Shown here one piece after another: positions 9,130-55,056 of a stretch of 64,000 nucleotides of DNA. Every line of letters begins with the position of its first letter. Position 1 is the first letter of the stretch. The stretch spans positions 310,001-374,000 of the forward strand of contig WRPI01000001.1 in the NCBI GenBank assembly GCA_009773395.1, read 5' to 3'. The stretch comes from Hyphomonadaceae bacterium (GTDB taxonomy: Bacteria > Pseudomonadota > Alphaproteobacteria > Caulobacterales > Aquidulcibacteraceae). A model generated the notes under the pieces. The model worked only from the letters and a program-made list of their open reading frames with translations, was not told the origin of the DNA and did no database searches. A program made the position numbers and the translations under genes.

Positions 9130-9309
9130 TCTTCAGGAAACAGCGTTTTTCTAGCTTCGTCAAGGGGGAAAATTTATGCGCCTGTCTAAGTTAGGTCAAA
9201 ATCGTCTCTTTAAATGCTTACCTGCTCGCGAGCCTCAATCGTAAAGATAACTAGGAAACGGGTCGCCAAATGAAACCAAGTTCATTTTGTACTATTATTG
9301 GTCTTTGGC

Positions 9310-9505
9310 TGGTGACGGGCTTTTGGTGAAATTTGCGTTCACCAAAAACCCTTTGAATATGGTGCTAGCCGCCCCGAGCGCTTGTCAAGGGGCGAAGTGC
9401 TAGCATGGCAAAGCCACCCCTTGACAAGCGCTCGGGGCGGCCCTCACAATCGAACCCAAGTTTTTGTGAAGCTATTAGATTCACCAAAACTTGGTCAAGA
9501 CTCTT
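9310..9505. repeat. Three-hairpin intergenic element, copy 1 (family B)
   Basis: This fills most of the 467-nt gap between the aminotransferase start and the GntR gene stop. Hairpin 1 is at 9317-9351 (GGGCTTTTGGTGAA pairing with TTCACC and flanking bases). The central hairpin is at 9368-9441, with a perfect 25-bp stem 9368-9392/9417-9441 containing TTGTCAAGG, and a 24-nt loop. Hairpin 3 is at 9456-9494 (CCAAGTTTTTGTGAA with its complement). The gaps are 16 and 14 nt. It is close to copy 6 at 54.8 kb, including the loop. The rest of the gap (9130-9309 and 9506-9574) shows no gene. Confidence 0.85.
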
Positions 9506-9574
9506 AAAGGCTCTGACATAACCATTTATCCATATTTTGTGACCTAATAACATAGGGATAGCCCCAAATAATTT

Positions 9575-13158: not shown

Positions 13159-13251
13159 TGTCATCCCCGAATTTTCGCAGAAAATATCGGGGATCTCAGA
13201 GAATTATACTACCAGATCCCCGACAAAATCTTTGATTTTTCGGGGATGACA
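13159..13251. repeat. REP/BIME-like double palindrome (TCATCCCCGA ... TCGGGGATGA)
   Basis: The outer arms TGTCATCCCCGAA at 13159-13171 and 13239-13251 are perfect 13-bp inverted repeats. Inside them, CGGGGATCT at 13188-13196 pairs with 13214-13222. Each half can also fold alone (ATCCCCGA with TCGGGGAT). Units of the type TCATCCCCGA-N-TCGGGGAT are common dispersed repeats in alphaproteobacterial genomes. The copy lies between the convergent gabD and DUF3426 genes. No other full copy was noticed in this window. Confidence 0.75.
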
Positions 13252-18579: not shown

Positions 18580-18785
18580 GAGAAAGGAAGTTTAAGTGGC
18601 TTTGGAATGGTTTATGGAAAATCATGCTTTTCCAAAACCATTCGATGAGCGTGAGTGCGCCCTAGGTTTTTGTCAAGGCCGCGCTTTGCGCCCGAAGGCT
18701 TTGGGCCTTGACAAAAACCTAGGACGCGAAGGGATAATAACCGAATGGGCTTAAGACAAACCTGCGCTTAAGACCATTCCAGACA
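18580..18785 (+). repeat. Three-hairpin intergenic element, copy 2 (family A)
   Basis: It lies in the 659-nt gap between the DUF2125 gene and rplU. Hairpin 1 is 18605-18643 (GAATGGTTT with AAACCATTC). The central hairpin is 18657-18727, with a perfect 20-bp stem 18661-18680/18704-18723 reading CCTAGGTTTTTGTCAAGGCC. Hairpin 3 is 18743-18779 (GAATGGGCTTAAG with CTTAAGACCATTC). The gaps are 13 and 15 nt; the second contains the conserved GGGATAATA. GGAATGGT at hairpin 1 can instead pair with ACCATTCC at hairpin 3. The outer arms seen in copy 3 have mostly decayed here. A TATAAT at 18803-18808 just after it might be an rplU promoter. Confidence 0.85.
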
Positions 18786-33049: not shown

Positions 33050-33068
33050 TTTACTGGAGCATCGGACG

Positions 33069-33379
33069 TTCAAGTTGCATCAAATATTTGCAATTGAATT
33101 CTTGTTTGAGAAAACGAGAATAAGTGGCTTAGGAATGGTTTATGGAGGAACATGTTCCCCAAAACCATTCTTCAATGGTGATATGCGCCCTAGGCTTTTG
33201 TCAAGTCCTCGCGCATTGCAAGGCCGCGAAGCGGCTTCGAGACTTGACAAAAACCTAGGGCGCTAAGGCATAATAGCCGAATGGGCTTAAGGCAGACCTG
33301 TCCTTGAGACCATTCCAAAGCCACTTAATCTCTCTTTCCCAAACAACACGCAAAATGTTGATATTTGATGCAACTTGAA
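33069..33379 (+). repeat. Three-hairpin intergenic element, copy 3 (family A, full length with terminal inverted repeats)
   Basis: It fills the 341-nt gap between convergent genes. The ends are a perfect 19-bp inverted repeat at 33069-33087 and 33361-33379 (TTCAAGTTGCATCAAATAT). AAGTGGCTT-AGGAATGGT on the left pairs with ACCATTCCAAAGCCACTT on the right. Hairpin 1 is 33133-33170; the central hairpin is 33185-33263, a 23-bp stem with one mismatch and a GCCGCGAAGCGGC loop hairpin; hairpin 3 is 33279-33315. The gaps are 14 and 15 nt. No target duplication is evident at the ends. Only about 20 and 11 nt outside the element are free. Confidence 0.9.
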
Positions 33380-33390
33380 GGGGTGTCGCT

Positions 33391-34257
33391 CTAATCGCGC
33401 GGCTTTGCACGCTGCTTTGAGAAACTAGCGTCCCAATTTCCCATGAAGCTGCCACCATAACGCTCCATGCGCTGTCGATTAAAGCTCAGTGCAGCCAGTA
33501 GATATTTCGAACCATTTTTAAGCAAATCCGCAAATGACTTGGGTTTAATTCCATATTTGCGACAAACATAAATGCGCGACCAGGCCATGTGATAACGAGC
33601 AAGAAAAACTCGGCCTTTTTGCGGTTGTGTGGACTTCCCGCGCGCATGGAGTGCCATCGCGCCATCGATATGGATTAGACTTAAGCCAGAGTCAAAAAAC
33701 CTTCGACACAAATCGTCGTCTTCATAAAATAGGAAAATATTCTCATCAAACCCGCCCAAATCCAAAAAGCTGTCGCGATTTATGAGATAGCTAGCACCCG
33801 ATAAAAACGGTAAGCAACAATCACCATTTGGCGTCATGTTTTTGGCTTGGTTTAAGTGAAATGGTGATAAAAGCGAGCGCGGTTGGATAAAAACTCGCCC
33901 ATCATTTTCAACAATTCGCGGGGCAATTATTCCAATATTTTCATAGGTTTTGGTGGCGGCCAATAGCGCCTTTATTGACGCTTCATCAATTTCGATATCT
34001 GGGTTTAGCATAAGCACCCAAGGCGTAGCCGCAGCTTTTACGCCGATATTATTGGCGACCCCAAACCCAAGATTTGCACGGTTTTCGATGACATGCGCAC
34101 CGTATTTTATCGCAATCTCAACGCTAGCGTCCGTTGAACCATTATCAACAACAATTGTCTTAACCTTCGCTTTTGCAAGCAAGTTAAGCGCATTGCCAAT
34201 AATGTGCGCGCTATTAAAACACACTATTATTGCGGTTAGGTCTTTGATGGTGGTCAT
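33391..34257 (-). CDS. Glycosyltransferase family 2 (rhamnosyltransferase-like)
   Basis: Protein of 288 residues with a GT-A fold: AIIVCFNSAHIIG, VVDNGSTDAS, NLGFGVANNIG and MLNPDIEID (the DxD-like site), then FLSGASYLINRDSFLDLGGFDENIFLFYEDDDLCRR. This pattern matches WbbL-type glycosyltransferases that add a sugar in O-antigen, capsule or exopolysaccharide. No sugar-nucleotide genes are adjacent, so donor and acceptor are unknown. It is 36 nt after the DUF882 peptidase gene. Confidence 0.85.
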   Translation of the reverse strand: MTTIKDLTAIIVCFNSAHIIGNALNLLAKAKVKTIVVDNGSTDASVEIAIKYGAHVIENRANLGFGVANNIGVKAAATPWVLMLNPDIEIDEASIKALLAATKTYENIGIIAPRIVENDGRVFIQPRSLLSPFHLNQAKNMTPNGDCCLPFLSGASYLINRDSFLDLGGFDENIFLFYEDDDLCRRFFDSGLSLIHIDGAMALHARGKSTQPQKGRVFLARYHMAWSRIYVCRKYGIKPKSFADLLKNGSKYLLAALSFNRQRMERYGGSFMGNWDASFSKQRAKPRD

Positions 34258-47984: not shown

Positions 47985-48180
47985 TTGGCTTAGGAAGGCC
48001 TTTGGGCAATGCTGCCAAAGGCCTCCAATGAGTTTACTTGCGATGTTTCTATGTCAACCCCCAGGGCCGCTTCGCGGTCGCGCTAAGGCGCGAGGGGTTG
48101 ACATAGAAACATCGCGGACATCAAAATCGAAACAAGGCTTTACTGGCAAGAAATGCCATAAAGCCGTTCCAAGTTTTTTC
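47985..48180. repeat. Three-hairpin intergenic element, copy 4 (family C)
   Basis: It lies in the 438-nt gap between the hypothetical gene and fabI. Hairpin 1 is 47996-48024 (AGGCCTTTGGG with CCAAAGGCCT). The central hairpin is 48040-48115, with a perfect 22-bp stem 48040-48061/48094-48115 reading GCGATGTTTCTATGTCAACC and two more C; the loop has CCGCTTCGCGG. Hairpin 3 is 48136-48165 (GGCTTTA-CTGGCA with TGCC-ATAAAGCC). The gaps are 15 and 20 nt. The sequence differs from families A and B except for TGTCAA/TTGACA, but the layout is the same. Bases 47752-47984 show no gene. Confidence 0.8.
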
Positions 48181-50380: not shown

Positions 50381-50681
50381 GCTTAATGCGTCTCAATAGC
50401 AATCGTATCAAAGTTGCCAAGAAGGAATTTGCTTGGGAATGGTCTTAGTGGCAAACTTGCCCTAAGCCCATTCGATAATTATCCCTATGCGCCCTAGGTT
50501 TTTGTCAAGGCCGCGCTTTGCGCCCGCGAAGCGGCTATGGGCCTTGACAAAAACCTAGGGCGCGACACAAACTCGATGAATGGTTTTGGTTAGACAAATC
50601 TAGCCAAAAACCATTCCAAAGCCACTTAATCTCTCTTTTTCAATCAAAACAACAAATGCAGTTAATTGATGCAACTTGAAC
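50381..50681 (-). repeat. Three-hairpin intergenic element, copy 5 (family A, inverted relative to copies 2 and 3)
   Basis: It lies in the 451-nt gap between convergent rpsU and engB. Left hairpin 50437-50473; central hairpin 50489-50563, with a perfect 24-bp stem 50489-50512/50540-50563; right hairpin 50578-50616. The gaps are 15 and 14 nt. ACCATTCCAAAGCCACTTAA follows on the right, and the end TTGATGCAACTTGAA (50666-50680) matches the terminal repeat of copy 3. The left end is diverged. Read on the minus strand it aligns with copies 2 and 3, including the GGGATAATTAT spacer. Between it and the rpsU terminator nothing is seen. Confidence 0.88.
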
Positions 50682-54799: not shown

Positions 54800-54990
54800 A
54801 GGCTCAGGAAGGGCTTTTGGTGAAAACTTTGTTTTAACAAAAACCCTTCAAATATGGTCCTGCCGCCCCGAGCGCTTGTCAAGGTGCGAAGTGCAAGCAT
54901 GGCGAAGCCACCCCTTGACAAGCGCTCGGGGCGGCTTTCACAATCAATACCAAGTTTTGTGAAGCTACAAGTTTCACCAAAACTTGGTCA
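54800..54990 (+). repeat. Three-hairpin intergenic element, copy 6 (family B)
   Basis: It fills most of the 274-nt gap between convergent transporter and lysA genes. Hairpin 1 is 54808-54849 (GAAGGGCTTTTG with its complement). The central hairpin is 54862-54935, with a perfect 23-bp stem 54862-54884/54913-54935 reading GCCGCCCCGAGCGCTTGTCA and AGG. Hairpin 3 is 54950-54987. The gaps are 12 and 14 nt. It matches copy 1 at 9.3 kb in all three hairpins and in both spacers (AATATGGT before the central one), with scattered changes in loops. Confidence 0.87.
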
Positions 54991-55056
54991 TGACTCTTTG
55001 AAAATTCGGCCAAATCAACGGGCTTTTATTGAATTGACGACTGGGCGTCGAAGGGT

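Follow-up and report, generated by a model that had tools for sequence, protein, structure and literature searches.

REP/BIME sequences and REPINs are inverted hairpins that are arranged in mosaic units and lie mostly downstream of genes. Another group of short dispersed repeats, the CIR elements, comprises the CcrM-associated intergenic repeats of Caulobacter (PMC2229807, PMC10969869). As far as these two accounts describe them, CIR elements are alphaproteobacterial, strictly intergenic and of several types per genome, with paired stem-loops, TA ends and an unproven mobility, all of which they have in common with the element described here. Together with Correia/NEMIS, RUP and REP/BIME they are, on the descriptions consulted, its nearest known kinds; no publication describing the element itself was found by titles and abstract openings.

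The window is the whole stretch of 64,000 nucleotides that was analysed, positions 310,001 to 374,000 of contig WRPI01000001.1 (C7) of a Hyphomonadaceae bacterium (GCA_009773395.1), and the features found in it are collected in Table 1. All copies have a common layout: a hairpin (H1), a long central palindrome and a second hairpin (H3), which form a non-coding core of about 190 bp (173-189 nt in alignment A2; three hairpins in about 180-200 bp). Searches of the entire genome (2.63 Mb, 17 contigs) recovered 30 copies of family A, two of them damaged, 4 full copies and 1 partial copy of family B, and 3 copies of family C, and the copy to which an earlier note on this DNA had drawn attention is one of the 30. 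The copies are short, non-coding, intergenic and dispersed. Between C7:250001 and 536424, all 23 of 23 inverted repeats with arms of at least 16 and loops of at most 70 nt are centres of this superfamily. Rfam 15 gave 0 matches at gathering score within the window. RplU finds its best match (82%) in a Hyphomonadaceae MAG, and the bacterium is thus probably an uncultured one of this group.

Table 1. Element copies and their parts in the window (window coordinates; strand "." where none applies).
Feature	Position	Strand	Basis or remark
Family A copy (H1, central palindrome, H3), subject of the earlier note	18604..18780	+	one of 30 A copies
Flank hairpin H1, GAATGG...CCATTC	18605..18643	+	sequence, alignment, pair counts
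Central palindrome with 24-nt arms (96% complementary) separated by 23 nt	18657..18727	.	inverted-repeat search
Promoter-like motif TTGACA - 19 nt - GATAAT, directed at H3	18708..18738	+	sequence, motif count
Flank hairpin H3, GAATGG...CCATTC	18743..18779	+	sequence, alignment, pair counts
Second family A copy	33132..33316	+	genome search (C7:343132-343316)
Outer inverted repeat round copy 33132-33316; ends 33055-33083 and 33365-33393 match TAGAGC...TTCAAGTTG	33055..33393	.	
Third family A copy	50436..50617	-	genome search (C7:360436-360617)
Family B copy	9307..9510	+	
Family B copy	54808..54998	+	C7:364808-364998
Family C copy	47992..48171	+	

The reported copies lie on contigs C7, C8, C4 and C11, nearly all of them on C7 and C8, and no copy was reported on C15 (at least 537 kb) among the best first-look candidates scored there. 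GC skew in the examined stretches is flat and uninformative on this clustering, so that an explanation through the origin or terminus of replication, which was considered, gains no clue from it. Alignment A2 contains 28 of the 30 family A copies; L038 (C7:290807-290904), which is without most of its central palindrome and part of its spacer, and L022 (C8:103934-104088), which carries a short palindromic insert of about 50-70 nt within its H1 loop, were left out. With respect to the flank hairpins, the central palindrome or its loop is turned one way in some copies of A, B and g6 and the other way in others, g6 being a sister genus.

The earlier note had held that the two flank hairpins mimic each other in every family and change together between families. 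In family A this was borne out, for both flanks have the form GAATGG...CCATTC and are nearly invariant in the 28 aligned copies, with single changes in the 5' arm of H1 (L013, L030), the 5' arm of H3 (L011, L026, L027) and the 3' arm of H3 (L016, L021, L023, L025). The likeness is partial in the other two families of this genome: H1 and H3 of family B both have TTTTGGTGAA / TTCACCAAAA, but their outermost arms differ (GAAGGG vs CCAAG in B2-B4; 4 full copies), and family C reaches a mean longest complementary run of 4.7 (3 copies). The 18-bp pairing that the note described for its copy 3 reads, in the copy at 33132-33316, as 10 + 8 pairs round one mismatch, and it sits in a 71-nt, 80% inverted repeat (33069-33139 / 33309-33379). 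Across seven families (A, B, C, g6, L199, L175/L177 and L178) a permutation test revealed that the complementarity between the 5' half of H1 and the 3' half of H3 is higher within than between families, with 15 of 5040 permutations as good by longest run and 81 of 5040 by duplex energy; the hairpin limits for this test were set by hand, five of the groups (A, B, C, g6, L175/L177) have clear bounds, and the TTTGGTG core common to B, g6 and L175/L177 means that these three are not independent. The proposal that the flanks change together thus holds over the seven families, although C is weak and one weak sister-genus match, L178, has unrelated flank hairpins. The family-specific likeness of the two flank hairpins is supported by these results, and mirrored flanks with two folds would suit a mobile unit whose ends match as well as a protein site with symmetry.

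Because its arms are mirrored, the element can also fold in a second way, with the 5' arm of H1 paired with the 3' arm of H3. This predicted pairing is energetically real in family A and negligible in families B and C. When it was forced on the 28 aligned A copies the mean penalty was 2.6 kcal/mol, being 0 in 7 copies, at most 4.3 kcal/mol in 27 and 18.8 in the remaining copy, L021; the alternative amounts to a partner swap at a four-way junction, in which the outer arms exchange and the inner hairpins stay. These values support the existence in family A of two mutually exclusive folds of nearly equal energy. The expected number of swapped pairs is 0.00-0.02 in family B and 0.00-0.24 in family C, while in g6 (22 copies of 24 cores fetched, L208 and L215 out) it is below 1 in 16 of 22 and below 1.5 in 17 of 22; it reaches 2.5-4 in L196, L201 and L203, and in L205 and L211 the swapped fold prevails. 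The minimum-energy fold of L175 and L176 is likewise long-range. The comparison of folds that the earlier note had proposed therefore has a divided outcome, near iso-energetic in A but with next to no swapped pairing in families B and C or in 16 of the 22 copies from g6, and the similar energies that a switch would call for in all members do not hold in these. Furthermore, mirrored arms give rise to two folds close in energy even where nothing selects for a switch, so that such folds are expected of any element with mirrored hairpin ends and by themselves are no evidence of a switch.

Covariation is revealing of where selection acts. Within the local hairpins of the 28 A copies, 59 cells changed on both sides were counted, compared with 14.9 in shuffles (0 of 500 as high), and further pair types were not raised (26 vs 27.2). 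The same count for the swapped pairing of H1 with H3 gave 5 cells against 3.8 in shuffles (135 of 500 as high), and all five derive from the outermost position, where 12 of 27 copies form a pair. In g6 there are two H1 subtypes that differ in the outer stem; each difference is balanced by a matching change within H1 itself, and H3 varies little between the subtypes. The local hairpins are what is under selection. The arms of family A hardly vary, as they would also do if both folds were important, and for this reason the covariation test draws its weight from the outer position, from the other families and from g6. A switch, one of the two possibilities raised by the earlier note, is not supported, as compensatory change is found in the local hairpins and none above shuffles between H1 and H3, and the second fold of family A is probably a by-product of its mirrored arms.

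A promoter-like motif, TTGAC-N16/18/19-NAHAAT, lies between the centre and H3 in 51 of 58 copies (26 of 28 in A, 5 of 7 in B and C, and 20 of 23 in g6, L215 being out of the 24 cores fetched). Its spacing is 18 or 19 nt in A, 18 in B and C and 16 in g6, and the sequence of the spacer differs. On the H1 side the motif was found twice in A and never in B, C or g6, and with 2 of 58 copies a promoter on that side was rejected. The background at TTGAC sites is 64 of 724 on C7, where the elements themselves are included, and 11 of 622 on contig C73 of genome G009. Judged from the position of the motif, a transcript from the predicted promoter would begin near the base of H3 and would be without H1.

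The two flanks also differ in the pairs that they tolerate on either strand. On the + strand of family A the H3 stems have 15 G-U and 0 A-C cells and the H1 stems 0 G-U and 7 A-C, with 4 and 6 in the central palindrome, as if each flank hairpin were read outward, on which the other measures are divided. Fold energies by strand exhibit no preference in family A, and the g6 pair counts (22 of 24 cores, L199 and L208 out) do not repeat its bias, with G-U:A-C ratios of 15:31 in H1 and 3:7 in H3. The g6 fold energies (21 of 24 cores, L199, L208 and L215 out) do show an outward strand bias, in 19 of 21 copies for H1 and 18 of 21 for H3.

Divergent genes seldom flank the element. On gene calls that are rough, 17 of the 30 A copies lie between convergent genes, 12 between tandem genes and one beside a place where no left gene was called, so that 0 of 29 copies with both genes called have divergent neighbours. 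Considering all families on C7, 8 of 24 copies are convergent, 15 tandem and 1 divergent, against a background of 23 convergent and 35 divergent among 122 gaps, and the convergent excess there (8/24 vs 23/122) is weaker than the 17 of 30 in the A set. In a survey of 14 g6 loci, 0 of the 13 with both neighbours called were divergent. A candidate empty site was found between DUF2125 and rplU, where the interval is 659 bp with the element and 183 bp in G001 without it, a comparison of one locus between diverged genomes; the attempt at L014 gave no ortholog, its left gene having only remote relatives in the genus.

The phylogenetic distribution of the element is patchy. BLAST for family A found it absent from 60 relatives, and a covariance model of A found nothing in 4 other genomes of its own genus but matches in 7 of 9 searched genomes of sister genus g6 (43 candidates per genome scored). 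A class-wide run of the model returned the own genome only (1 of 385), which is weak evidence since the best 6 candidates per genome were scored. The exact H1 pattern had no match in collections of genome contigs and viral contigs, from which the own or very near records are possibly excluded. In g6 the layout is H1, a palindrome with TTGAC near its loop, (A)ACAAT and H3; the 24 cores fetched for the g6 analyses are a subset of the matches, and L195 and L196 represent one locus in two species. A run that included the own genome, G008 and G011 (124 candidates per genome scored) gave matches in the latter two that were partial or centre only and were left out of the copy counts. Long, nearly perfect palindromes do occur in these two other genera (L165, G008:C21:1496-1620; L166, G011:C18), that of L165 with TTGAC in its arm and without clear mirrored flank hairpins.

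Many A cores are enclosed in degenerate outer inverted repeats, TAGAGC...TTCAAGTTG, whose end motif has 26 matches in the own genome and 0 in 12 other genomes. The motif was found to the left of 21 of 30 A copies and to the right of 13, being missing at the right end of many, and many outer ends bear TA with no clean target duplication. The g6 core lies in a different mirrored frame, with GATGAC about 30 nt to the left in 8 of 19 copies and GTCATC to the right in 11 of 19, mostly at a distance of about 24 nt, over backgrounds of 3.5% and 3.0%; the count covers 22 of 24 cores (L208 and L215 out), 19 of which have long enough flanks. The presence of one core in two different frames in two genera suggests that the core moved on its own. 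Flanking genes end at the TAG of the outer repeat at the left of 11 and at the right of 6 of the 30 A copies, by eye, and in L013 and L014 this is true of the two convergent neighbours alike, which looks like an insertion of the frame into stop codons that overlapped.

Related repeats exist without the core. A distinct repeat, about 164 bp long and with TAGAGCGTTGGATGTTCAAGTTGAATCGA as its mirrored ends (L063, L065, L066 and L067, all on C7 of this genome, G000), has an end motif in common with the outer frame of family A, with further matches to this motif on C6, C8, C10 and C15. One GANTC site is present in each of the four copies read, and at L064 another short palindromic insert lies within a 164-bp repeat. 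At 13159-13251 of the window is an inverted repeat, TGTCATCCCCG...CGGGGATGACA, without the three-hairpin core, and its end motif also frames the core in sister genus g6.

The element is dispersed, has mirrored ends with a family-specific likeness of H1 and H3, covaries within its local hairpins and carries a conserved promoter-like motif. These properties are best explained by a non-autonomous, interspersed mosaic element of the MITE or BIME kind with mirrored end hairpins and an outward predicted promoter, a reading to which we give a probability of roughly 0.55. Mobile elements need matched ends, and family-specific matching is expected of them; the mirrored hairpins would then be the ends of a mobile unit and hence change together, either through recognition by one enzyme or by being made alike when the palindrome is copied. 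Supporting this reading, the spread is patchy in a way typical of mobile DNA (family A in one genome, relatives in 7 of 9 g6 genomes and none in genus mates), the rplU interval is longer where the element is present, the core lies in different outer frames in two genera, and one copy is without most of its centre while another has an insertion in H1. Local covariation in the presence of none across the two flanks points the same way, as do the promoter-like motif, at 51 of 58 on the H3 side vs 2 of 58 on the H1 side, and the scarcity of divergent neighbours (0 of 29 in A, 1 of 24 on C7, 0 of 13 in g6). Against it stand the negative search for a transposase of the Y1 family and the outer frame motifs, which are present in part of the copies (21 and 13 of 30 in A, 8 and 11 of 19 in g6), and the copy counts are not independent because copies within a genome are related. 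The core may have spread inside larger mirrored repeats, the TAGAGC...TTCAAG frame here and GATGAC/GTCATC in g6, and may survive where it is least harmful, downstream of genes; its promoter would make a short RNA with H3 at its start, and the second fold seen in family A would be a side effect of the mirrored arms.

The hairpins may alternatively serve the genes that they follow. In a REP/BIME-like 3'-end element they would stabilise or terminate the mRNAs arriving from either side, with the mirrored pair serving two opposite transcripts and mobility being past or incidental. Such a role would account for the location of the 30 A copies (17 convergent, 12 tandem, 0 divergent), the strong conservation of the local hairpins and the opposite biases of G-U pairs by strand in A (H1 0:7, H3 15:0) and of fold energy in g6 (19/21 and 18/21). 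We nevertheless consider it unlikely, as the A consensus is without a T run after the hairpins, the bias is absent by energy in A and by pair counts in g6, the TTGAC/NAHAAT motif is left unexplained and harmless insertion alone would give the same location. This motif is central to another explanation, a multicopy small-RNA gene: the motif, lying between centre and H3, would be the promoter of a regulatory RNA whose 5' hairpin is H3, and the copies would be kept by selection for this RNA. The persistence of the motif in 51 of the 58 copies, with a spacing of 16, 18 or 19 nt and differing spacer sequence, and the G-U bias of H3 on the + strand in A, are consistent with such a gene; H1 and the left half are, however, conserved as well as H3, the sequence 3' of H3 is poorly conserved in A and the g6 pair counts do not repeat the H3 bias, which makes it distinctly unlikely.

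Two further explanations take the folded forms themselves as functional. A folded-DNA recombination site, at which a recombinase cuts a cruciform or single-strand structure made by the palindrome and the mirrored hairpins and also flips the central loop, would explain the long, nearly perfect central arms, the centre found in either orientation among copies and the four-way junction that mirrored arms permit. It is very unlikely given that the enzyme search (Y1) was negative, that template switching can also flip loops and that the swapped fold is not favoured in most copies outside A. The least probable explanation is a bistable RNA switch, in which an RNA that covers H1, centre and H3 alternates between three hairpins and the exchanged-arm fold. 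The near iso-energetic folds of family A, the family-specific likeness of the H1 and H3 arms and the long-range fold favoured in L205, L211, L175 and L176 are in its favour, but the swapped pairs are without covariation while the local hairpins covary strongly, the swapped fold plays next to no part in B, in C or in 16 of the 22 copies from g6, and with the promoter-like motif downstream of H1 the element's own transcript would be without H1. Having been tested by energies and covariation, the switch is not supported; what is left of it is a fold that is feasible by energy in family A and in a few copies of the sister genus.

A bolder reading may also be put forward, although it is unlikely in all its parts. 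The element of these Hyphomonadaceae-type bacteria would be a movable promoter cassette with mirrored hairpin ends that entered the middle of two unrelated mirrored repeats in two genera and makes an RNA beginning with H3, and the exchange of arms would be a real DNA junction formed during movement or during inversion of the central loop. If the preferred reading of a non-autonomous interspersed element is right, these bacteria carry dozens of movable promoters between their genes. The co-changing end hairpins would also let one ask what keeps the ends of a non-autonomous element matched, enzyme recognition and palindrome copying being the candidate causes.

With REP/BIME and REPINs the element has in common inverted hairpins, mosaic units and a location mostly 3' of genes. 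A GTAG/CGTC tag at the stem feet was not seen by eye in the A and g6 alignments, the feet being of GAATGG/GGAACC type and GCGC, and Y1 transposases of the RAYT type (PF01797) gave 0 matches in the genome with controls positive in 5 of 14; a RAYT/REPIN identity was rejected on the absence of the Y1 transposase from the genome. RUP of pneumococcus and other TA-target MITEs are, as described, similarly non-coding and dispersed with TA outer ends (PMC2229807), and our element differs from them in that no parent insertion sequence was found, the Y1 family having been looked for. CIR elements, by the accounts cited, are about 110 bp long and consist of two arms and a linker (PMC2229807, PMC10969869), unlike the three hairpins in about 180-200 bp found here, and the GANTC exposed in their repeat loop is a trait that the family A core almost always lacks, with GANTC present in the core of 1 of 30 copies; the flank on the outer 3' side does contain GANTC in 16 of the 30. 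Compared by description, the element departs from the Correia/NEMIS repeats of Neisseria in its three separate hairpins and its one promoter-like motif on one side; those repeats are short and mobile, with inverted ends, promoters and stem-loops in transcripts (PMC2229807), traits that our element shares or is predicted to share.
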